Source of the DNA: Bolinopsis microptera
Taxonomy: Eukaryota > Ctenophora > Tentaculata > Lobata > Bolinopsidae
DNA: 64,000 bases
Assembly (NCBI RefSeq): GCF_026151205.1
Contig: NC_087074.1
Location: 8,163,726-8,227,725 of the forward strand
Direction: 5' to 3'
A program made the position numbers and the translations under genes. The notes below the pieces were generated by a model, which worked only from the letters and a program-made list of their open reading frames with translations, was not told where the DNA came from and did no database searches. Numbering within the stretch: position 1 is the first letter of the stretch; each line of letters begins with the position of its first letter. Shown here piece by piece: positions 17,150-33,015 of the stretch.

Positions 17150-17166
17150 TATATGTATATGAATGT

Positions 17167-18675
17167 ATGAAAGATGGCATATTTCCAGATGACCTTAAAG
17201 TTGGAAGGATTAGTCCCATTTACAAGAAAGATAACCAGGAACTCCTTGAAAACTATAGACCTGTATCAACGCTAGCTGTGTTTGGTAAAATATTTGAAAA
17301 GATTATATTCAATAGATTATACAGCTTCTTTCATTCACAGAACTCCTTATATGAAAACCAGTACGGATTCCGTAAAAATCACTCGACCAGTTATGCCCTA
17401 AATTACTCAGTGAACCACGTAGAATCTTGCCTCAAGAAAAAACAACACGTTCTTGGAATATTTATTGATCTTAGTAAAGCCTTTGATACAATATCACATG
17501 AAAAGTTACTGCATAAGTTAGAAAATTATGGAATCCGTGGAAATGCAAATAACCTTATAGCAAGTTACCTGTCGAACAGATACCAGTATGTCTCGGTATT
17601 AGGTGAAGAATCCGATAAACTTCCAGTAGTCTATGGAGTGCCGCAGGGGAGCTGTCTTGGTCCCTTACTTTTTATTATTTATATTAATGACATCCGTAAC
17701 TCATCAATTATAGGAAAGTTTATACTATTTGCCGACGACACTAACATATTTATAGAAGACACATGTGTCAAAAGACTATACGAAAAAGGAAATGAAGTTC
17801 TATCATTTGTGTACAAGTATATGAAACTAAACTTATTACATATTAACATTAAGAAATGTTGTTTTATTCATTTTAAACCCTCACGGGCCAAAGAGGAAGT
17901 AGAAAATGACGAGAACATACTAACTTTAAATAATGTAGTTATTAAAAGAGTTCAAGAAGCTAAATTTCTAGGCGTTATTATTGACGACCAACTTAACTGG
18001 AAATCACATACGCAGTCACTTAACTCAAAACTTAAATGCGAAGTAGGAAAGCTGTGCAGAATACGACACATTGTCCCAAAGCAGTATTATAAGGATTTAT
18101 ATCATACTCTATTTGAATCACATTTAGGATTTGGAATATCTGTGTGGGGTGGTATTAGCAATAACCGACTTGAACCTATCTTTAAAACACAGAAAAAGTG
18201 TATAAGAATTCTGTTTGGGGATAGAGAAGCTTACCTAGAGAAGTTTAAAACGTGTGCCCGAACACGACCTGTTGATAAGCAAAGACTGGGGGTGGACTTT
18301 TACCAAAAAGAACACTCCAAGCCCTTGTTTAAAACCCACAGGTTGTTGACGGTCCACAATCTGTACAAGTACACTTGTCTCTTAGAACTATTCAAAATTA
18401 ATAAGTTAGAGGAACCATTATCACTGTACTCATCATTTAACAGGTCACCACGACGAGAGGATTATTTCATTACATCACAACCATCCTCACAATTCATCTA
18501 CCAATCATCCTACATGTGGAACAGCTGTCGACAAACATCAAGTAAGATAAGTTTTAATACTCCGACAAACGGGTTTAAGAATATATTGAAAATTGCCTTA
18601 CGAGAATTGCAATTCAAGCATGATACACTTGATTGGTGTGAGCTTAATTTTGCCACAAATGAGCTCAAGTTCTGA
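17167..18675 (+). CDS. 5'-truncated LINE reverse transcriptase (jockey/CR1-like group)
   Basis: An intact 502-residue frame. It begins inside the RT fingers (GIFPDDLKVGRISPIYKK, then NYRPVS) and continues through FIDLSKAFDTI, YGVPQGSCLGPLLF and the catalytic FADDT to FLGVIIDDQLNW and the thumb, ending with the ...FK...L block usual for this group. These are RT domains 1-7 in order. The endonuclease and ORF1 that a full element carries are missing, so it is a 5'-truncated insertion starting near 17150. The frame has no stop, which suggests a recent insertion. It could not move without help. The ATG at 17167 is internal to the original ORF2. Confidence 0.85.
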   Translation: MKDGIFPDDLKVGRISPIYKKDNQELLENYRPVSTLAVFGKIFEKIIFNRLYSFFHSQNSLYENQYGFRKNHSTSYALNYSVNHVESCLKKKQHVLGIFIDLSKAFDTISHEKLLHKLENYGIRGNANNLIASYLSNRYQYVSVLGEESDKLPVVYGVPQGSCLGPLLFIIYINDIRNSSIIGKFILFADDTNIFIEDTCVKRLYEKGNEVLSFVYKYMKLNLLHINIKKCCFIHFKPSRAKEEVENDENILTLNNVVIKRVQEAKFLGVIIDDQLNWKSHTQSLNSKLKCEVGKLCRIRHIVPKQYYKDLYHTLFESHLGFGISVWGGISNNRLEPIFKTQKKCIRILFGDREAYLEKFKTCARTRPVDKQRLGVDFYQKEHSKPLFKTHRLLTVHNLYKYTCLLELFKINKLEEPLSLYSSFNRSPRREDYFITSQPSSQFIYQSSYMWNSCRQTSSKISFNTPTNGFKNILKIALRELQFKHDTLDWCELNFATNELKF

Positions 18676-22204: not shown

Positions 22205-22319
22205 ATTGCAAGCATTCTTGAAAAAAATCTGTAATTAGGTTGTTGTAGAGCCCACAGTCCAGCCATGCACTGGAGAAAGCCTTCGCCCTGGCACCTTTCT
22301 TGATGATGGGGCAAGGCTT
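22205..22319 (+). pseudogene. Old RLE retrotransposon copy, first piece (before LTR insertion)
   Basis: The frame reads VEPTVQPCTGES...LDDGAR and continues after the LTR element at 32820 as LDIAAIGLWSPMEMAFFDIRV. It matches the endonuclease region of the complete element (ADRAAPDVSSRGLWSTFERT FFDV). The GGCTT target duplication of the LTR element lies at 22315-22319. A stop just upstream (near 22217) shows the copy is decayed. Confidence 0.7.
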
Positions 22320-22824
22320 TGTTAGAATCTTAATTCTATTTGTAGCTTGTTTTTGTACTTCATATTACTAACCCTGTATCTCACTTTAGCAAAGGTTTAG
22401 TTCCAGTGATTGTATATACAGTGTTGGGGTAAAGGGACTCCAGAAGGCAGACAAGGCTCGACTCCAGACTCTAGTTGAAGTAACAGAAGAGAGAGGAGTG
22501 TCCAGTGTTTAGTTGACTCCAGACTCTAGCGAAGCAGAAGGGAGAGGAGTGACGTTGTCGACTCCAGACTCTAGCGTAGCAGAAGGGAGAGGAGTGACGT
22601 TGTTTTAGTGATCCCACAGATTCCAGTCGACAGATACTATCTGTGTTCTGTGACGTGGAAAGAGTGGTAAGTAGTTTATAGTTATAGTTTAGTAGTTTAG
22701 TCTAGGAGTTCCCGCTTCCTCTTTCACTTTCATTTATAGTTTCACGTGGATTACCTTTCACTTTACTCACGGTAGTTTTCCCCCAGGGTTTTTATTATAG
22801 TTATCAGTTCCAGTTTAGTTGAAG
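22320..22824 (+). repeat. LTR1, 5' portion
   Basis: Matches 27636-28140 of LTR2. It contains three related blocks of CTCCAGACTCTAG...GAGAGGAGTG (about 22470-22585). The PHD/RT/RLE retrotransposon inserted after GTTTAGTTGAAG at 22813-22824. Confidence 0.85.
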
Positions 22825-25800
22825 TTTTAAACTAATTACAACACTACAAATCTATTACATTTATTGAGGTATGACAATGGAAAGTCCACTACGATGATAA
22901 CAAACAGCGGTGAAGACAAGACAGCAGAAACAGAGAGTGTACAGCTACCAGACACCTGTGATCCGGAGATATCTCAACACCTGTCTTCTGAAGGTATTGC
23001 TTATGTTACACCTGTTGTTTCTCTGTTATGTGGAATCTGTCCCAAAGATCTTATATCAGAACCTTGTAGCATTCAATGTGATTCCTGTAAGACATTTTTC
23101 CATCCTAAATGTCTTGGCAAGTCTGCACCAGTGGACAGTGAACGGTGGGTTTGTCAGAAATGTAGGGATAATGTAGAGAACCAGCAGATCATTGATGCTC
23201 CTGACGAGGAAAATGATATCTGTTATAACTGTCCCGTGTGTAGGAGTGTTGTGGGGGATTCGGATAAGGCATTGGGTTGTGATGGCTGTGAAGAATGGTT
23301 CCATGCACCTTGTTTGTTTATCAGTGAAACCGAGTACGCTGAGATGGATAATGAAGAGATATGGTTTTGTGATACTTGTCAAGCAGTGAAAGCAAACAAA
23401 ATTAATTGGGGCTCAATGGTTGATGAAGAGTTGATAGCTGAGAAAGTCCAAGCTGTTTATCAAGAGATGGTGACATGGAGAAAGAATCTTTTCCTAGTTC
23501 CCAGAGGTAAATCAGGTAGCGACTTTATAAAAGAACTGACTCGGCTCATCCTCTTATTTGCAGATGCTACCAAGTGGGAAAGGCTATCGTTCGCACTGGT
23601 TCATATCTTCTTGCCAATCATGTTGCAAAAACCGTCAAGCAAGTCAAAAGCAAGAGACCATGTAACATATCTCACCAAGCGTTTGGTTAAATGGAAAAAT
23701 GGAGAACTTGACGATCTAATGATGGAGTGCAGGAGTATTCAGAAAGCCTTGGTGCAGCAACAAAAAATCAGCGAGGAATCCAGGAAGAAGAGTTTCTGCC
23801 GACTAATACTTCTTGGGAAAGTTAAACAAGCCACCAAATATGTTGACAGTTCCAATGACACCTTAGGAGTTCACAGCCTAACAGCAAACATTAAACAGGT
23901 CCTTGGGGAGAAACACCCTCCAGCTGTTAAAGCAGATCCAGTTGTTCTGCACCCTCACAGTACTCCTCCACCTCAGGAAGTGATATTTGAGAGGATTGAC
24001 GCAGAGACTGTCAAGAGGGCTTGTTTATATTTGGATGGATCAGGCGACCCAACACTAACGGACTCAGATTTGTGGAAGCATATCATCTGCAGCAAATCAT
24101 TTGGCAAAGCATCAGTGACACTTGCTGAGTCTATAGCAATTGTTGCAAGGCGCCTTTGTAGAGAAGATATCCATCGTAGCTGTCTGAAAGAGTTCACTGC
24201 ATGCAGATTAATCCCTCTTGATAAAGGCCAGGATAAGAACGGGAAACCTGGTGTAAGACCAATTGGAATCGGCGAGATATTGCGCAGAATCATTGGAAAA
24301 GCAGTTATAATGTCTTTCAAAACTGATATACAATATGCTGCTGGCCCACTGCAGACCTGTGCAGGGCTCAAATCAGGAATAGAGGCTTCCATTCATGCAA
24401 TGAGACAGATCTGGGAAGACAGTGACACTGAAGCAATACTACAGGTTGACGCTGATAATGCGTTCAATCGTCTTAATAGAGAAGCAGCCCTTCACAATGT
24501 TCATGAGATCTGTCCTCCGCTCTATCAGTATCTAAAGAACCACTACCAAAAGCCAGCAGACCTGATCATTAATACTACCGAGGACCACTACCAACTTAAG
24601 TCTGAGGAAGGTTCAACTCAGGGAGATGTAGCAGCAATGGCATTCTATGCGTTAGGGATCAAGCCTCTAGTAGATGACCTAGCCACAGCCTCCAAGCCCA
24701 GTGTTTGCAAACAGTCTTGGTATGCAGACGACAGTAGTGCTGGTGGAAAGATTGAAGGTATTAAGATATGGTGGGATACGCTGTTGGAGCAAGGACCAAA
24801 GTATGGATATTACCCAAAAGCCAGTAAGACCGTCCTGATTGTGAAGAAAACCGAGGACCTAGATCTTGCGCAGAAAGTATTCTCAGGCACTGGTATTAAA
24901 ATCGAGTCTGAAGGAGAACGCCATTTGGGTGCAGCAATTGGCAGCGAAGTTTTTAAGAACAAATATGTCTCAGATAAAGTCCATAAATGGTGTCAGGACA
25001 TCAAGCTGTTGTCATCAATTGCTGTTGAGGAGCCCCAAGCTGCTTTGACTGCATATACTAAGGGAATTTGTCACCGGTGGACGTTCATTCAGAGGACCAT
25101 CCCGGGTATAAGTCACTTGTTTCAACCATTGGAGGATTGCATCAGAACAGATTTTATTCCAGCAATCTTGGGTAAGAACGTATCAGACTTGGACCGCTCC
25201 ATATTTGCATTGCCAGTCAGACATGGTGGCCTAGGTATCTCCAACCCAGTTGAAAACTGCAATAGAGAATTCACAGCCTCAGTCACCATCACAAAAGACC
25301 TCACAGACCTGATTATCAACCAGCAAAACACCCTTGAATATTACAACATGTCAATTCAAAATGACACTATAAAAAGTCTCAAGGCAATCAAGGAGAAACA
25401 CTTATTTACGGTTAGCAAATCAATAGAGGACAGTGTAAGAGATCCCAACCTAAAGAGATCTCTCCAGTTCATCAAAGAGAAAGGTTCAGGATGTTGGCTT
25501 ACTGCACTTCCATTGAAGAGATTTGGCTACTCCCTGAACAAGATTGAGTTCCGTGATGCTCTGTACTTGCGTTATGGTTGGGAGATCCCTAACACCCCAT
25601 TTCACTGTGCTTGTGGAGAGAGAAATAATGTGAATCACACACTTATATGCAAGAAAGGTGGCTATGTTTCTATGAGACACAACAACATCCGCGATCTAAA
25701 TGCAGAGCTGCAGCGTGAAGTATGCAGAGATGTAGTGACTGAGCCAGCATTGATACCCCTTGATAATGAAGAAATTGTTGGTACCAATGCTGATAGAGCT

Positions 25801-26562
25801 GCACCTGATGTATCCTCACGAGGTCTCTGGAGCACATTTGAACGAACATTCTTTGATGTCTGTGTTACCCACCCCAACTCACCCACATATGACAAAAAAG
25901 ATATGGAACAGATCTATAAAGTTCATGAAATGAGGAAAATGAAAAAGTACAACAACAGAATCATCCAGGTGGAAAAAGGCACCTTTACTCCACTTATATA
26001 CTCAACAAATGGCGGATGGGGTCCACAAGCCACAAGATACCACAAGAGACTCGCTGAAAAACTATCCCAGAAGAGAGGAGAAGACTATGCGGCTATTATG
26101 TGTTATATGCGCACCAGGATTAGATTCTCAATCCTCAGGAGCACCCTGATAGCGGTCAGGGGTGAGAGAGGGAGACGGCAATCGTATACATTGCCAGTCA
26201 GTGTAACTTCGTTTAACTTGATACCTGCCACCATGGACTATGAATGTTTCTAGACACTATCCTTTTGATATTGAGATATTGGTATTTCAGACCACGTGTA
26301 CATCGTTCCTTTTTTTACGACACAGTAATTTATTGACACTCACAGCTATAATTTTAATCATTGAATCAGTATTTTTATCTGTGCTCTGTGAATGCATCAC
26401 ATGAATCAGTTTTTTAATCTATTAACTTATTACACATTTGTGCTCTGCTTTAGCATCACTTGACTATTTAAAAAAAATTGTTTGTTCAGGCCATGACCTT
26501 ATAGTCAGCCAATTGGCCATTGCTATATTATGTGTATATTGTTTGAATATTCTTTTCTCCTC
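22825..26562 (+). mobile_element. Complete PHD-RT-RLE non-LTR retrotransposon
   Basis: This is a 3,738-bp insertion in LTR1. GTTTAGTTGAAG flanks it on both sides (22813-22824 and 26563-26574), and the uninterrupted LTR2 gives the empty site (TTTAGTTGAAGTCCTCATC). The 5' leader is about 70 bp, there is a single ORF, and the 3' UTR of about 310 bp ends ...TATATTGTTTGAATATTCTT with no poly-A tail. The last ~30 bp recur at the end of the truncated copy at 15795. The lack of poly-A and the single ORF fit the older, endonuclease-of-restriction-type non-LTR clades. Confidence 0.88.
22894..26253 (+). CDS. PHD-finger / reverse transcriptase / restriction-like endonuclease polyprotein
   Basis: The single ORF is 1,119 aa from the first in-frame ATG (22894). 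Two PHD-type zinc fingers lie at residues ~46-90 (C..C...C..C...H..C...C..C) and ~110-162 (CPVC...CDGC..WFH..C...C..C). The RT follows at ~380-720, with VDADNAF (catalytic Asp near 519), EGSTQGD and WYADD (Y610). The C-terminus has a zinc knuckle CACGERNNVNHTLIC (905-919), a RHN motif, and a PD...FFDV...K..KY pattern (P971-D972, D988, KKY ~1020) as in restriction-like endonucleases of R2/R4/NeSL-type elements. It would nick the target and prime cDNA synthesis from it. R2-type proteins use C2H2 or Myb DNA-binding domains at this end, so PHD fingers are unusual. No frameshift is seen, so it may be active. Confidence 0.85.
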   Translation: MITNSGEDKTAETESVQLPDTCDPEISQHLSSEGIAYVTPVVSLLCGICPKDLISEPCSIQCDSCKTFFHPKCLGKSAPVDSERWVCQKCRDNVENQQIIDAPDEENDICYNCPVCRSVVGDSDKALGCDGCEEWFHAPCLFISETEYAEMDNEEIWFCDTCQAVKANKINWGSMVDEELIAEKVQAVYQEMVTWRKNLFLVPRGKSGSDFIKELTRLILLFADATKWERLSFALVHIFLPIMLQKPSSKSKARDHVTYLTKRLVKWKNGELDDLMMECRSIQKALVQQQKISEESRKKSFCRLILLGKVKQATKYVDSSNDTLGVHSLTANIKQVLGEKHPPAVKADPVVLHPHSTPPPQEVIFERIDAETVKRACLYLDGSGDPTLTDSDLWKHIICSKSFGKASVTLAESIAIVARRLCREDIHRSCLKEFTACRLIPLDKGQDKNGKPGVRPIGIGEILRRIIGKAVIMSFKTDIQYAAGPLQTCAGLKSGIEASIHAMRQIWEDSDTEAILQVDADNAFNRLNREAALHNVHEICPPLYQYLKNHYQKPADLIINTTEDHYQLKSEEGSTQGDVAAMAFYALGIKPLVDDLATASKPSVCKQSWYADDSSAGGKIEGIKIWWDTLLEQGPKYGYYPKASKTVLIVKKTEDLDLAQKVFSGTGIKIESEGERHLGAAIGSEVFKNKYVSDKVHKWCQDIKLLSSIAVEEPQAALTAYTKGICHRWTFIQRTIPGISHLFQPLEDCIRTDFIPAILGKNVSDLDRSIFALPVRHGGLGISNPVENCNREFTASVTITKDLTDLIINQQNTLEYYNMSIQNDTIKSLKAIKEKHLFTVSKSIEDSVRDPNLKRSLQFIKEKGSGCWLTALPLKRFGYSLNKIEFRDALYLRYGWEIPNTPFHCACGERNNVNHTLICKKGGYVSMRHNNIRDLNAELQREVCRDVVTEPALIPLDNEEIVGTNADRAAPDVSSRGLWSTFERTFFDVCVTHPNSPTYDKKDMEQIYKVHEMRKMKKYNNRIIQVEKGTFTPLIYSTNGGWGPQATRYHKRLAEKLSQKRGEDYAAIMCYMRTRIRFSILRSTLIAVRGERGRRQSYTLPVSVTSFNLIPATMDYECF

Positions 26563-26574
26563 GTTTAGTTGAAG

Positions 26575-26900
26575 TCCTCATCATTCAGAAGTACCTCATA
26601 TAGTAAGAAGAACATCATCATCAGGAGTAGTAGTTTTAATTTAATAGTAGTTTAATCTAATAGTAAAAAGACATTATTTAGTTTAGTATTGATTTGTGTA
26701 TTAGTTATAGCAGTGTGAGTAGCTGAGTCACACCAATCACATTTCAATCACTCATTCACTATTTGAGGGTGAGTACATAGAGTAACAAGGTTACATTTGA
26801 AACACCATTTATTTGTATAACCTCTTTATTCATCTAATTTGTATTTATAATAATTGAGTATTATTTGTTATTTAATTAACCCAAGAACAGGGTTCCAACA
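26575..26900 (+). repeat. LTR1, 3' portion
   Basis: Continues LTR1 after the retrotransposon. It matches 28141-28429 plus 32781-32819 of LTR2 and ends GGGTTCCAACA. Confidence 0.85.
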
Positions 26901-26901
26901 G

Positions 26902-26967
26902 TGGTAGCAGGAAGTGGTTACGATCCACCGACCTCTGGGTTATGGGCCCAGCACGCTTCCACTGCGC
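26902..26967 (-). other. Extended primer-binding site complementary to initiator tRNA-Met
   Basis: Starting one base after LTR1, this is the reverse complement of initiator tRNA-Met from the 3' CCA back to nucleotide 10. On the minus strand the anticodon loop reads CCCATAAC, between stems CTGGG and CCCAG. The T-loop reads ATCGTAA where initiator tRNAs have ATCGAAA. It is not a tRNA gene. The 5' acceptor strand (positions 1-7) is missing, since the bases there, AGAAAAA, cannot pair with TCCTGCT, and the match stops at G10. It lies exactly where an LTR element carries its primer site. Confidence 0.85.
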
Positions 26968-27635
26968 AGTTTTTCTGTCATTACGATAACTCGATACAGA
27001 AATCTCTAAAGATCACACTTGTTTACAGTGTTGGATGGGTATTTTTTGTGCACCTGTCAGTCTAAGAACGATGTTTCCATTCCGTTCATAGAAAAGAGAT
27101 TTTCGTATTAAGAACTTTGATAGTTATTAGCTAATAGTTAGACTGTATTAATTCTATCGGACGTTTTGTACAAGTATTATATCTCTCAGATCTCACGCTC
27201 AGCGTGGAAGGCAGTCATTTTAGCCACTAGCCTGTTTTACAGCGGATGTTTTTCCCGCGTTAACAGAGATTTAATCCACTTGTACCACGTGACTCGCCGA
27301 ATATGGAATAATCGTTAACTGCTTTTTTAGTTATCTGCTTTCATGACAGTGTATCGACACGTATTTAGGATTAACTCAGATTGAGCCGCGCATTTTTTTA
27401 TATAGCTCAAACTCATAGAAAGTATTTTTAGCGCGCACGACACGTTTTTGTGCAGCGTGCGGGATTAGAATATTTTTAACTTAACATTTTTTCTAGAGTT
27501 TATTTCCTAATTTAACTTGGATAGTCGGATATCTATTTTTTAACAAAGAAAGTATAGGGAGTTATGACTTTAAGATTGTAAAAGTCATGAGTTAAATTAT
27601 TAGTAAGTACTTTTTCTTTTTTAAAGTAGGGGGAA
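26968..27635 (+). other. Non-coding interior of the LTR element, with polypurine tract
   Basis: No ORF of note. The right end AAAGTAGGGGGAA (27623-27635) is the expected polypurine tract for plus-strand priming, directly before LTR2. Homology to gag or a packaging signal is not visible. Confidence 0.65.
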
Positions 27636-28429
27636 TGTTAGAATCTTAATTCTATTTGTAGCTTGTTTTTGTACTTCATATTACTAACCCTGTATCTCAC
27701 TTTAGCAAAGGTTTAGTTCCAGTGATTGTATATACAGTGTTGGGGTAAAGGGACTCCAGAAGGCAGACAAGGCTCGACTCCAGACTCTAGTTGAAGTAAC
27801 AGAAGAGAGAGGAGTGTCCAGTGTTTAGTTGACTCCAGACTCTAGCGAAGCAGAAGGGAGAGGAGTGACGTTGTCGACTCCAGACTCTAGCGTAGCAGAA
27901 GGGAGAGGAGTGACGTTGTTTTAGTGATCCCACAGATTCCAGTCGACAGATACTATCTGTGTTCTGTGACGTGGAAAGAGTGGTAAGTAGTTTATAGTTA
28001 TAGTTTAGTAGTTTAGTCTAGGAGTTCCCGCTTCCTCTTTCACTTTCATTTATAGTTTCACGTGGATTACCTTTCACTTTACTCACGGTAGTTTTCCCCC
28101 AGGGTTTTTATTATAGTTATCAGTTCCAGTTTAGTTGAAGTCCTCATCATTCAGAAGTACCTCATTTATAGTAAGAAGAACATCATCATCAGGAGTAGTA
28201 GTTTTAATTTAATAGTAGTTTAATCTAATAGTAAAAAGACATTATTTAGTTTAGTATTGATTTGTGTATTAGTTATAGCAGTGTGAGTAGCTGAGTCACA
28301 CCAATCACATTTCAATCACTCATTCACTATTTGAGGGTGAGTACATAGAGTAACAAGGTTACATTTGAAACACCATTTATTTGTATAACCTCTTTATTCA
28401 TCTAATTTGTATTTATAATAATTGAGTAT
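27636..28429 (+). repeat. LTR2, 5' portion
   Basis: Starts TGTTAGAATC. It gives the uninterrupted form of the site where the PHD-RT-RLE element entered LTR1. It is itself interrupted after GAGTAT at 28429 by the gypsy element. Confidence 0.85.
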
Positions 28430-28534
28430 TGTCGTGAGATTTATTATTACTAATATGTACTATTTACAGGATGTTTAATATTTAATGTAACTCTGTTAAC
28501 AACTGTCTCATTTGGTAACTCTCGACACACAACA
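28430..28534 (+). repeat. 5' LTR of gypsy element
   Basis: 105 bp, TG...CA. It contains AGGATGTTTAA at 28468-28478, exactly complementary to TTAAACATCCT at 28537-28547 just after the LTR. If transcription begins near 28468, U3 is only about 38 bp. Confidence 0.9.
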
Positions 28535-28536
28535 CT

Positions 28537-28547
28537 TTAAACATCCT
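28537..28547 (+). promoter_or_regulatory. Candidate self-priming primer-binding site
   Basis: The sequence TTAAACATCCT starts 2 nt after the LTR. It lacks the TGG that pairs with a tRNA CCA end but is a perfect 11-nt complement of AGGATGTTTAA in the LTR. In the fission-yeast element Tf1 the primer is the first 11 nt of the transcript itself. The match in length and place suggests the same mechanism here. Confidence 0.6.
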
Positions 28548-28562
28548 CAACTAAACAAAAGT

Positions 28563-31500
28563 ATGGATAAAGTACTGAGACCGGATAGACTAGAACTGGA
28601 CCTAGCTACATCAACTCAAGGAGGAAACGCAAACAAATACACACATTGGAGCACTACGATGGACAACTTCATCGAGACACTGAAAGAAACCGTAACTAGT
28701 GACGAAGATAAATACAAGGTTTTAATAAACTTTATTAGCCCTGATATCTTCCTGCACATATCGGGGCTAACTAAATACACTGAAGCCAGCACCCTCTTAC
28801 AGGCTCTATTCGTAAAGACGAAAAACCCAAACTATGCTCGTCACTGCCTGGCCATGAGAACCCAGAAGGAAGGAGAATCCATCGAATTATACTTACTGGC
28901 ACTAGAAAAACTAGCTAAAGAGTGTGACTTCAAGGAGGTAACTGCTGCAGCGCACCAAGAGGAATGTATCAGAACGGCATTCATATCAGGATTGAGCTCA
29001 CATCAGATCCGCCAACGGCTACTTGAGGATACTAAATCCTTATCTGACACAACTAAGGCAGCTACCACACTTGAGCAAGCCCTCAGGGAGAGTAAGCACT
29101 ACAATCACCGGGCTTCTGACGAAGGTCACTTAGCGGCAACCGATTCATGCTCTGTTGGTCAAGAGTCTATCTCTCATGTTGCAGCTGTTCAGGGCCGTGC
29201 CCAATTCCAATCACAAAAAGGAGGAGACAAACACTGCGGTTACTGCGGCTACAGCCCTCACGACCGAAAAGTTTGTCCTGCAAGAGATGCACCCTGCCAC
29301 AACTGTGACAGACGGGGCCACTTCAGCAGTGTTTGCCGACAACGCAAGAGAAATCCTGACAAACGCTCTGCAGCCATGCACCGGCCTGCTAACGATGATC
29401 ACGTACCTGCTGAGATGGACGCCTATACTCCCTTCCTCGCTGCTACCTCGTCGACTCCTTACCCCTCATCCCTCTCCCACTCCGTAGTAAACGTCAAGGT
29501 AAATGACCATTTCAATGGCTATCTCCTAATTGACACAGGAAGCTCCGAAAGCTTCATTTCTAAAAGTTTTGCTTCTAAATTAGGCGTTAAACTTTCAAAC
29601 TGTAATAATTCAATAACATTAGCATCAGAAAATCATGTGAGTAGAACTGTGGGTGCCTGTCATGTTGATATAAACTTAAATGAACATTCCCTCTGTAACG
29701 TGCGCCTCATGGTTCTTGAACAGTTGTGTTGCGATATCATACTGGGTTTGGACATTTTGAAGGAACACGAGCGCCTGGTACTTTCATTTAGTGGTCACAA
29801 AGCACCCATCGAACTCACCAGTCCCTTTTCTCCGTCAATTTCCTGCTCACTGGCTAAAGCAGATATCGAGCCCCCATCTTTGTTCGCCAATCTCGAGGGT
29901 AATCTCCGTCCTATTGCCTGCGGTTCTCGCAAGTTTTCCGATCAAGAGTCATTTTTCATTAAACAAACCATTGATAGCCTACTTGAAAGTGACATAATCA
30001 GGCCAAGCAAGAGCCCATGGAGGGCTCAGGTTCTAGTTACTGGCCTCAACAAGCCGAACACAAAACCGAGGATGGTTGTAGACTACTCTCGCACGATAAA
30101 CAAATTCACACTACTGGACGCATATCCATTACCAAACATGGAGAGGGTTGTATCTAGCATTGCAAAGTACTCAATCTACAGCACCTTTGACCTTAAGTCT
30201 GCGTATTATCAAATACCAATAATGGAAAACGAAAAGTCTTATACCGCATTCGAAGCCGCCGGAAGGTTATTTGAGTTCAACGTCATCCCCTTTGGTGTTA
30301 AAAATGGGGTAGCAGCCTTCCAGAGAGTCATTGACCAAATCATAGAACAGGAGAAGCTCGAGGGGACTTTCGCCTATCTTGACAATATTACGGTGGCGGG
30401 TGAGTCACAAGAAGAACATGACGAGAATGTGAAGAAGTTTCTAGACATTGTAGAGAAATATAGTCTAACCCTCAACAAGGAGAAAACAGCGGGGCCTACT
30501 ACCTTTATTAATATCCTAGGCTACTTGGTCTCAAAAGGTCAGATGAGACCTGATCCAGACCGCATGGAGCCCTTACTTAAACTGCCATTGCCTAAGGACC
30601 CTGCTTCCTTGCAGAGAGCTCTCGGTTTGTTTTCATACTACTCACGGTGGGTAGAAAAGTACTCAGATATGGTCCAGCCACTCATTAAGGAACCCTCATT
30701 TCCACTGTCAGAGACTTGTAATACTGCTTTCGAGAGTATTAAATCAAAAATCGCAAGTTCATGTATCGTGTGTCCCAATGATCGTGATAATCTCGTCCTT
30801 GAATCAGATGCTTCTGAGTTTGCCCTTTCCGCTAGTCTTAACCAAGGTGGTAAGCCTGTTGCATTTTTCTCTAGGACCCTAAAAGCACATGAACGCAGAC
30901 ACCACGCTGTGGAGAAGGAGGCCTGCGCTATTGTTGAAGCATGTCGAAAATGGCAACATTATTTAGCAGGACGAAAATTCACTCTCATCACCGACCAACA
31001 GGCTATCTCTTTCATGTTTAGTCATCAGACCCACGGGAAGATCAAAAATAATAAGATACAGCGCTGGAGGATCGAGCTCTCCACCTTGGACTTTGATATC
31101 AAGTATCGGCCCGGGCCCGAAAACGTCACAGCCGACTGCCTTTCGCGAGCCTACTGTTCAGCCCTCGCCTATGGTTACCCTGACCTGGTTGATATTCATG
31201 AAAATCTCTGTCATCCAGGTGTGGCCAGGTTATATCACTTTGTTAGGGTCAGAAACATGCCTTTCTCCATCGATCAAGTCAAGAAAGTAACAGCTGATTG
31301 TGGGGACTGTGCTAGGATTAAGCCCAAGTTCATCAGACCTCTAAACCCTCCGCTAATAGAAGCTACAAAACCACTGGACCGAATTAGTATTGATTTCAAG
31401 GGACCCCTCCCATCGAGCACAAAGAATAAGTATATGCTGGTCATCATAGATGAGTATAGCCGGTTCCCCTTTGTCTACGCCTGCCCTAACATGGAATCTT

Positions 31501-32270
31501 CTACCATAATCAGATGTTTATCTAACTTGTTCTCTATGTTTGGCACGGTAGGATATGTACACTCAGACAACGGCCCCTCCTTGATAAGCAGTGAGCTCCG
31601 TAAATTCTTCCTAGATCACGGGGTAGGGTTTAGTAATAGTTCGAAGTACAACCCCCGTGGTAATAGCCAGGTTGAACGTTACAATGGCGTCATATGGAAG
31701 GCTATTCAGCTAGCACTATCAAGCAAAAAGTTCCCTCTGACCCATTGGGAGATAGTCCTACCCGAGGTACTTCATGCTCAAAGGACTCTGCTCTGTACGG
31801 CCACTAACCAGACTCCCCATGAACGCCTTTTCTCCTTCCAAAGGAGATCCGCTTCCGGAAAACCAGTCCCTTCTTGGCTATTGACTCAAAAAAAAGTGCT
31901 GGCCAAGAGGCACGTTCGAAGGTCTAAGTATGATCCATTATGTGACGAGGTCGATCTTGTCTCAGTCAACCCCGCAAATGCTAGAGTCAGGTACCCAGGG
32001 GGCCGCGAGGACACTGTTTCGTTGAGGGACTTGGCACCTCTACCTGTCAGCGAATCTAATGCCGAAAACTCCACAGGATCTGCTGTAAAGGAAATACCCC
32101 CAGTTGCAGTGACCCCCTCTGTTACGGTCGCTCCATCTACTCCCGCTCCCTCTAACCCTCCAACCTCCTCCTGTATCCCTGAACCGTGTCATCTCTCCGA
32201 ACTGCCTGAGCCCAACCCCCGCCGTTCAACTAGGGAATCTCGTCCTCCTGACCGCTTCCAGGCTGGTTAG
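28563..32270 (+). CDS. Gypsy gag-pol polyprotein, about 1,235 aa
   Basis: The first in-frame ATG is 28563 (MDKVLRPDRLEL). Gag comes first, with zinc knuckles near residues 220-255 (CGYCGYSPHD...C and CHNCDRRGHFSSVC). The aspartic protease follows (LIDTGSSESF, ~322), then RT with FDLKSAYYQIP, FGVKNGVAAFQR and YLDN (~605), RNase H (ESDASEFALSASLN, ~747; TDQQAISFMF), and integrase with H-H-C-C (HENLCHPG...CGDCARI) and DDE (SIDFKGP ~943, HSDNG ~1001, VERYN ~1038). The order RT-RH-IN is the gypsy order. Gag and pol are fused in one frame, so no ribosomal frameshift is needed. The RT box is YLDN, not YxDD. The C-terminus is Pro/Ser-rich (VAPSTPAPSNPPTSS) without a chromodomain. Confidence 0.93.
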   Translation: MDKVLRPDRLELDLATSTQGGNANKYTHWSTTMDNFIETLKETVTSDEDKYKVLINFISPDIFLHISGLTKYTEASTLLQALFVKTKNPNYARHCLAMRTQKEGESIELYLLALEKLAKECDFKEVTAAAHQEECIRTAFISGLSSHQIRQRLLEDTKSLSDTTKAATTLEQALRESKHYNHRASDEGHLAATDSCSVGQESISHVAAVQGRAQFQSQKGGDKHCGYCGYSPHDRKVCPARDAPCHNCDRRGHFSSVCRQRKRNPDKRSAAMHRPANDDHVPAEMDAYTPFLAATSSTPYPSSLSHSVVNVKVNDHFNGYLLIDTGSSESFISKSFASKLGVKLSNCNNSITLASENHVSRTVGACHVDINLNEHSLCNVRLMVLEQLCCDIILGLDILKEHERLVLSFSGHKAPIELTSPFSPSISCSLAKADIEPPSLFANLEGNLRPIACGSRKFSDQESFFIKQTIDSLLESDIIRPSKSPWRAQVLVTGLNKPNTKPRMVVDYSRTINKFTLLDAYPLPNMERVVSSIAKYSIYSTFDLKSAYYQIPIMENEKSYTAFEAAGRLFEFNVIPFGVKNGVAAFQRVIDQIIEQEKLEGTFAYLDNITVAGESQEEHDENVKKFLDIVEKYSLTLNKEKTAGPTTFINILGYLVSKGQMRPDPDRMEPLLKLPLPKDPASLQRALGLFSYYSRWVEKYSDMVQPLIKEPSFPLSETCNTAFESIKSKIASSCIVCPNDRDNLVLESDASEFALSASLNQGGKPVAFFSRTLKAHERRHHAVEKEACAIVEACRKWQHYLAGRKFTLITDQQAISFMFSHQTHGKIKNNKIQRWRIELSTLDFDIKYRPGPENVTADCLSRAYCSALAYGYPDLVDIHENLCHPGVARLYHFVRVRNMPFSIDQVKKVTADCGDCARIKPKFIRPLNPPLIEATKPLDRISIDFKGPLPSSTKNKYMLVIIDEYSRFPFVYACPNMESSTIIRCLSNLFSMFGTVGYVHSDNGPSLISSELRKFFLDHGVGFSNSSKYNPRGNSQVERYNGVIWKAIQLALSSKKFPLTHWEIVLPEVLHAQRTLLCTATNQTPHERLFSFQRRSASGKPVPSWLLTQKKVLAKRHVRRSKYDPLCDEVDLVSVNPANARVRYPGGREDTVSLRDLAPLPVSESNAENSTGSAVKEIPPVAVTPSVTVAPSTPAPSNPPTSSCIPEPCHLSELPEPNPRRSTRESRPPDRFQAG

Positions 32271-32670
32271 ACACTTGATCGTGCTTGATCACCGCGTGAA
32301 TTTCGAGACTTTTCACTATTGATGAGACATTTTATATTTGGCAGTTTTAAAGCCTAAATTATAATTTATGCGTGTGTACGTAATGGCGCCGTCACTCTGT
32401 GGCAGCAACCTGATTACTAGTTTACGTAACGCGCGGGGACTTTCGCATATCTGGAAGCCGTCTCCATAAACATTTCTAATCTAATTATCTTATGATATAG
32501 CGCAGCCGCGCGGAGACGATATTACGTTTATATTCGCCGTTTTATATCTCAGTTTTATGAACCGTTTTTTACCGTTTTATAATTTAAATTTTACCCCTGT
32601 TTTATAGTTTTGTGAGAGATTAAAGTAATTTTGACTTCAATATTGACTTCTATTATTTAGCTGGGGAGAA

Positions 32671-32775
32671 TGTCGTGAGATTTATTATTACTAATATGTA
32701 CTATTTACAGGATGTTTAATATTTAATGTAACTCTGTTAACAACTGTCTCATTTGGTAACTCTCGACACACAACA
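32671..32775 (+). repeat. 3' LTR of gypsy element
   Basis: Identical to 28430-28534. Followed by the second AGTAT target copy and then the end of the interrupted LTR2 (32781-32819). Confidence 0.92.
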
Positions 32776-32819
32776 AGTATTATTTGTTATTTAATTAACC
32801 CAAGAACAGGGTTCCAACA

Positions 32820-33015
32820 GGCTTGACATTGCAGCTATAGGTCTGTGGTCACCAATGGAGATGGCATTTTTTGATATCAGGGTTTTACACCCCGGAGCCA
32901 AAAGCAACGCTAATCACAACACCCCAGCAAAGATGTACAGTATAGTATATAGTAAGCATGAGAGAGAGAAAGAAAGGAAATATGGAGACCGCTGTGTACC
33001 AATTCAAACTCAAAA
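32820..33015 (+). pseudogene. Old RLE retrotransposon copy, second piece
   Basis: Resumes the frame of 22205-22319 after the LTR element: LDIAAIGLWSPMEMAFFDIRV LHPGAKSN... EKERKYGD. These are the D and K..KY parts of the endonuclease, matching residues ~970-1022 of the complete element. It is cut at about 33000-33015 by the minus-strand LINE. Confidence 0.75.

Follow-up and report, generated by a model that had tools for sequence, protein, structure and literature searches.

Over-long copies of initiator tRNA-Met beside LTRs of the ctenophore Bolinopsis microptera suggest reverse transcription past m1A58 and arrest before m1G9

Within the window analysed here, a 64,000-nucleotide stretch of the Bolinopsis microptera genome (contig NC_087074.1, positions 8,163,726 to 8,227,725, forward strand), an LTR element carries beside its 5' LTR a 66-nt copy of mature initiator tRNA-Met (iMet), and two further LTR-linked copies of the same length were found elsewhere in the assembly. 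The reading we favour, with a probability of roughly 0.83, is that plus-strand strong-stop DNA was over-extended through m1A58 of the primer tRNA, came to a halt ahead of m1G9 and was then misjoined; the modifications themselves are inferred.

The 66-nt match adjoining the LTR is not due to chance, and its sole mismatch to iMet (1 of 66 bases) is base 58. Five iMet genes were found, identical over 72 nt and all with A58 and G9, and in none of the five does CCA directly follow base 73; in the window element, U5, the linker base and CCA form one unbroken run. Positions 26902-26967 are an iMet copy with T58, and neither a tRNA pseudogene nor a normal primer-binding site. The initial annotation, made from sequence alone, had described the plus strand as complementary to iMet from CCA to nucleotide 10 with T58 at 26920, and this held (65/66). 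It had also named two observations that would refute its reading. One, genomic iMet genes with T58 and a matching 5' end, is not met by the five genes found; the other was an inserted tRNA pseudogene absent from other copies, and the segment is indeed absent from ordinary copies, but a pseudogene is ruled out by the arrangement. Neither ARAGORN nor Rfam at its gathering cut-off reported a tRNA in the window, which does not contradict a tRNA copy because the copy is truncated.

Table 1. Features of the window element and its tRNA copy (window coordinates).
Feature	Position	Strand	Details
Target-site duplication (TSD), left copy	22315-22319		GGCTT, 5 bp; read directly
5' LTR, first part	22320-22825	+	starts TGTTAGAATC; 506/506 identical to 3' LTR
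Later insertion in 5' LTR	22826-26562	+	LINE-like element, PHD fingers and RVT_1; 13-bp target duplication
5' LTR, second part	26563-26900	+	ends GGGTTCCAACA; 0 substitutions and one 2-nt gap against 3' LTR
5' LTR end	26900	+	ends ...GTTCCAACA
Linker base G	26901	+	between LTR and tRNA copy; same base in ordinary family-1 copies
Mature iMet copy, A76 of CCA back to G10	26902-26967	tRNA sense on -	65/66 identity to five iMet genes
Ordinary primer-binding site, 13 nt	26902-26914	+	also in ordinary family-1 copies
Base opposite tRNA position 58	26920	+	A (T in tRNA sense); genes give T (A58)
Microhomology CGC	26965-26967	+	common to tRNA-copy end and interior partner
Remaining 3' part of interior	26965-27635	+	polypurine tract at its end, 27626-27635
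3' LTR, first part	27636-28429	+	
Later insertion in 3' LTR	28430-32775	+	Ty3/gypsy-type element, 105-nt LTRs; target duplication AGTAT
3' LTR, last part	32776-32819	+	first 5 bases are the AGTAT duplication
Target-site duplication, right copy	32820-32824		GGCTT

The LTRs of the window element start with TGTTAG (22320, 27636) and end with CAACA (26900, 32819), and the GGCTT duplication lies outside both of them. Compared piece by piece, the pair shows 0 substitutions in 848 aligned bases and one 2-nt gap, which places a rough 95% bound of 0.12 on the later substitutions expected in 66 bases. Given so few LTR changes, T58 was very probably introduced during the replication cycle itself. Later mutation remains possible in principle both for T58 and for the G58 found in a second copy, and is improbable for the young window copy. 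The window element is most likely a young, integrated member of a Ty1/copia-related group that carries an internal deletion and was produced by faulty reverse transcription.

The two elements inserted later into the LTRs have features of their own. The LINE-like insertion contains a 1129-aa frame in which PHD fingers precede the reverse transcriptase domain. The gypsy-type insertion has no TGG primer site directly after its 5' LTR, and its positions 28537-28547 can pair perfectly, over 11 nt, with 28468-28478 within its LTR; such self-complementarity between an LTR and downstream bases resembles Tf1-type self-priming.

Ordinary relatives of the element, which we call family 1, do not share the long tRNA copy. 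A pattern search returned 19 family-1 joints between LTR and primer site from 18 elements, 14 of them ordinary, and in all 14 ordinary copies read the iMet complement is 13 nt long (with a mismatch in one copy) and gives way to AACTACG, or once AACGACG, which is unrelated to the tRNA. The four non-ordinary elements are the window element (66 nt), L029 (66 nt), L027 (17 nt) and L028 (18 nt). The interior of the window element has at least 25 other matches, 40 of 102 candidates having been scored; 20 of these 25 matches have their first base at query position 103 (window 26965), three bases short of the end of the window tRNA copy, and none of the 25 reaches into that copy. For 13 of the ordinary family-1 copies an interior match could be assigned; between their 13-nt site and the base corresponding to window 26965 lie 3.28-3.40 kb in 11 copies and more in two (4.7 and 11.8 kb). 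From this comparison it follows that the elements do not normally inherit tRNA sequence beyond base 13, and that the window element lacks some 3.3 kb of interior before 26965. The initial annotation had proposed looking for copies with ordinary 18-nt sites; the site of all 14 ordinary copies is 13 nt long. Its side idea, that the element now primes with the whole tRNA, finds no support in these 14 copies, nor in any other place found with the joint.

A second family, family 2, behaves in the same way: at least seven ordinary copies could be read (six from the pattern search, plus one that it had missed on account of an indel), and all seven have the 13-nt site (two with a mismatch), then GAACG. 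Sequence of the tRNA past base 13 was thus seen in 0/14 ordinary family-1 and 0/7 ordinary family-2 copies read. Family 1 meets the Ty1/copia criterion in its LTR (TGTTAG...CAACA, with TG...CA ends) and its 5-bp TSD (GGCTT in the window copy). Family 2 also has 5-bp TSDs (GGCTG, TCCAG), and carries an rve integrase domain (L058) with RVT_2 on the next stretch downstream (L059). It is of Ty1/copia type, with integrase ahead of the RVT_2 reverse transcriptase, despite an LTR that starts TATCAT and not TG. The two families share 49% identity over 80 aa at the start of gag and, on the pol side, two collinear stretches (51% over 43 aa and 40% over 86 aa). In the two pieces of family 1 that were scanned (about 2.3 of about 4 kb, from one copy's interior), no rve or RT domain was detected, the only signal being a sub-threshold CCHC knuckle. 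Family 1 is probably a shortened, non-autonomous relative of family 2, and it is conceivable, by inference, that a family-2-like enzyme copies it.

Two side observations concern related sequences. Of a third LTR family four copies were read (L048, L049, L051, L052): two have a true 18-nt iMet site, and in the other two the site is altered to TGGTAGCAGGCAGCGGTT, with two mismatches to iMet; this altered form is listed at 8 places in the assembly. At another locus (L031, C11:3945400-3946400), the tail of a family-1 interior and its LTR are accompanied by about 62 bases of that interior repeated in inverted orientation.

Over-long tRNA copies were sought by pattern across the assembly (264.65 Mb), a search that would miss masked stretches and more diverged copies. 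The iMet anticodon region, allowing ≤2 mismatches, occurs at 8 places, namely the five genes and three LTR-linked copies (control, 0). Searching for the T-arm joined to CCA while leaving base 58 free gave 9 places: the same three copies, the five genes, which have other bases in place of CCA, and one 18-nt site. Only the three LTR-linked copies (3/9) combine CCA with sequence past base 58. The second copy (L029, C10:338149) is 66 nt long, adjoins a family-1 LTR and has G58; the third (L030, C11:8868564), also of 66 nt, adjoins a family-2 LTR and has A58 plus G19A. All three extend beyond base 58 and begin at G10; the base ahead of it is G9 in the genes but T, A and A in the copies, so that the stop lies one base before G9 in 3/3, two of the joints having a 3-nt ambiguity and the third being unresolved. 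Across the three copies, mismatches to iMet amount to T58, G58 and G19A, that is, 3 in 198 bases, 2 of the 3 at base 58.

If any of 57 bases could form the end, the chance that two other copies share that of the first is 3e-4, or 5e-3 when 4 possible ends are allowed for each. The chance of at least two of three mismatches falling on one named base of 66 is 7e-4 (binomial), the site having been named beforehand. Both probabilities are rough and rest on only three copies.

Shorter over-long ends occur within family 1, in L027 (17 nt) and L028 (18 nt). These reach up to the expected m1A58 block, and both are joined at wrong places. The 17-nt copy is followed by AT, a partial repeat of the same bases and then the interior after a loss of about 2.9 kb; the 18-nt copy occurs twice, each time going on at an internal LTR position, in an element with the TSD TAGTT. 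As a separate observation, positions 487-1802 of L028 hold one insertion with three U5 ends, the first two of which run into the 18-nt tRNA copy and resume at one and the same internal LTR position, with a 7-nt repeat, ATCAGTT. For other tRNAs, a generic search for read-through copies (T-arm, CCA and an LTR-like end) returned 2 places with 1 mismatch and its control 4, and a second such search returned 3 and its control 2; by their letters alone these places do not resemble LTR joints, and nothing convincing emerged. No other place with the joint of the window element was found elsewhere in the assembly.

The two classes of end may be set beside the modifications expected on the primer. Human iMet has m1G9 in all copies, m2G10 and m2G26, without evidence for m2,2G26, and loss of methylation at position 9 was considered to remove a block to reverse transcription (PMC7293042); zebrafish Met-CAT shows an m1G9 signature (PMC11417395), and m1A causes both arrest and misincorporation during reverse transcription (PMC4787781). 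In the present genome we found two TRMT61A-like matches and one TRM10-like match, whose best solved relatives are TRMT61A (5ccb) and guanine-9 methyltransferase domain protein 2 (4fmw). Incidentally, the two TRMT61A-like matches (L055 and L056, at C3:10855359 and C3:10621387) have open frames of the same length, score almost the same, and lie 0.23 Mb apart in opposite orientation. By inference, m1A58 and m1G9 would be the two hard blocks expected on an animal iMet, although for this species only the writer genes were found and the marks are inferred. The 17-18-nt and 66-nt classes of end would correspond to m1A58 and m1G9, respectively. As a block, m2G10 was rejected, G10 itself having been copied. 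The main idea of the initial annotation, that m1A58 was passed with misincorporation and the product kept, is thus supported and strengthened by two further 66-nt copies, with modifications that are inferred and not measured; its proposed stop at G9/G10 (m1G9/m2G10) is refined, since copying of G10 but not G9 fits m1G9 and not m2G10.

At the window joint, CGC, the last three bases of the copy, is found again in the interior, where ordinary copies read TACGCAG, and the copied part may consequently end anywhere from base 10 to base 13. The second copy sits in an abundant repeat (at least 40 matches) that is also present at window 17154-18431, in a frame with an RVT_1 domain and no integrase hit, on which grounds we call it LINE-like. 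Two uninterrupted copies of this repeat (L061, L062) supply the empty site, AAGCG|GTATT; the tRNA copy follows AAGCG, with GCG common to both, and the canonical LTR end CAACA adjoins GTATT, so that the insertion site shows neither duplication nor loss. The LTR pieces of L029 (50-1126) are arranged head to head with a 47-nt filler that could not be identified. In the third copy, a canonical left LTR start follows GATGT and the tRNA copy is followed by TCGTT, that is, there is no matching duplication; its LTR contains an extra 518 nt, and no empty site for the 3' flank was found, the first 380 or so bases after the tRNA copy having no other match (40 of 286 candidates scored). Both of these copies lack a TSD, and in both the over-long end is the edge of the insertion and abuts sequence that does not belong to the element. 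Taken from the two resolvable joints, window and L029, the same three terminal bases (GCG/CGC) served as homology, which is consistent with a DNA 3' end that truly stopped at G10, each end being uncertain by up to 3 bases.

The LTR, the linker base and the mature iMet copy are continuous, and because of this the sequence must be plus-strand DNA copied from a tRNA primer still attached to the minus strand. The steps that follow are inferred. The enzyme would read through m1A58, with misincorporation there in two of the three copies, and would then halt ahead of m1G9; the resulting plus-strand strong-stop DNA would have the end ...CTGCGC-3'. Such an over-long end would fail to pair properly with the 13-nt primer-binding site. 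For the window copy, the terminal CGC may instead have paired with a CGC of the minus strand, either some 3.3 kb deeper in the interior or where that strand was broken or had ended prematurely, after which both strands would be completed. Integration of the product, with a target duplication of 5 bp, is shown. The two other 66-nt copies may have arisen by end joining or one-ended integration. Against this reading stand the A58 of L030, which shows no misincorporation and has its one change elsewhere (G19A), the small number of copies, the uncertainty of the true end (base 10 to 13) in the window and L029, the lack of a known empty site for L030, and the failure of the two generic searches to yield convincing read-through copies of other tRNAs.

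Four other explanations were weighed. In the first, which we consider very unlikely, the primer was cut or degraded at the D arm, or was unmethylated, and reverse transcriptase ran to the shortened template end at base 10, T58 and G58 being ordinary errors. A fixed cleavage site would also give the same stop in three copies, and A58 in L030 is what an unmethylated template predicts; however, the base expected to carry m1A accounts for two of the three mismatches in 198 bases (binomial 7e-4), the stop is one base short of the expected m1G9, and ends of 17 and 18 nt, before base 58, occur in the same family. A second possibility, likewise very improbable, accepts the read-through product and attributes the joint to cellular end joining of finished DNA ends rather than to strand transfer during reverse transcription. 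Two of the three 66-nt copies are indeed joined to outside DNA without a TSD, with a 3-nt overlap in the resolvable one; the window copy, however, has both LTRs, the polypurine tract and a proper TSD around an internal joint, and for that reason its joint most simply predates integration.

That the segment is a functional long primer-binding site, in a lineage now priming with most of the tRNA, can be all but excluded. Its length and almost perfect complementarity speak for it, but the joint was found at a single place and is shared by no relative found, the element has lost most of its interior, and ordinary copies keep 13 nt. Hardly any room is left, finally, for a tRNA pseudogene or tRNA-derived repeat that came to lie beside an LTR by chance or beside which an LTR inserted: the absence of the tRNA copy from 14/14 ordinary copies would agree with it, but CCA starts exactly at the primer site after the linker base of ordinary copies, 0/5 genes have CCA directly after base 73, the same arrangement recurs on three LTRs of two families, and the TSD of the window element lies outside both LTRs. 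The hallmarks of a tRNA pseudogene or tRNA-derived SINE, a tRNA 5' end and independent flanks without continuity from CCA to an LTR, are not met. Over-extension through m1A58 and arrest before m1G9 remains the reading that we prefer.

Comparable products are known from HIV-1, in which plus-strand products P1-P5 range up to full tRNA copies and only those ending at 58, 55 and 54 (P2-4) are described as usable templates (PMC13191261). There, too, plus-strand DNA is copied off the attached tRNA, m1A58 is the main block, and longer products form if A58 is unmodified. The longer HIV-1 products, however, arise in vitro or in TRMT6-mutant cells, whereas here a product reaching the base before G9 was transferred, integrated and inherited, with iMet as primer in a copia-type group; the section on over-extended HIV-1 products in PMC13191261 lists no stop at m1G9. 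Lentiviruses and spumaviruses have a primer over-extension sequence, a consensus of the viral genome next to the site (PMC13191261), which likewise consists of tRNA-complementary bases beyond the 18-nt site. Unlike that conserved sequence, the 48 bases beyond 18 described here are absent from 14/14 ordinary family-1 and 7/7 family-2 copies. Ty1 of yeast belongs to the same superfamily and uses the same primer tRNA, iMet, with a 10-nt primer site. The iMet primer, the short site and irregular ends are common to both systems, which differ in that tRNA sequence is inherited here, in rare rearranged copies. Arrest and mixed misincorporation at m1A, with errors at m1G9, are also the reverse transcription signatures of tRNA sequencing (PMC4787781, PMC11417395), but here they are written in genomic DNA by the element's own reverse transcription. 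In vitro, HIV-1 minus-strand strong-stop cDNA gives large deletions via homology-independent strand transfer (PMC10986323). In the literature searched (titles and abstracts, most subscription journals being outside its scope), we found no report of integrated LTR copies with tRNA sequence to G10, nor of inherited copies with both the base-58 error and the stop before G9. Inserts derived from tRNA at retroviral circle junctions are possible close precedents.

Failure of the m1A58 block has so far been studied in vitro, with mutant tRNAs and in mutant cells (PMC13191261); here, three natural outcomes keep their exact 3' ends, the base at 58 and the joints. With the modifications inferred, the genome seems to keep a record of tRNA methylation and of failed reverse transcription. 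A bolder reading, which we offer only tentatively since we would sooner wager against it than for it, is that the methyl marks of the primer tRNA set the rearrangements of the whole element group. The m1A58 and m1G9 blocks would then yield two classes of plus-strand 3' end, both mismatched at the primer site because the group's site is only 13 nt, and these ends would jump by homology of about 3 nt to give internally deleted, non-autonomous copies, so that genomes would hold a record of past tRNA modification readable without RNA, in the error spectrum at base 58 and the stop sites. Assembled genomes may be searchable for such stop and error marks, as a DNA archive of a chemical property of RNA, and the copies described here point to a concrete way in which internally deleted, non-autonomous elements could form.
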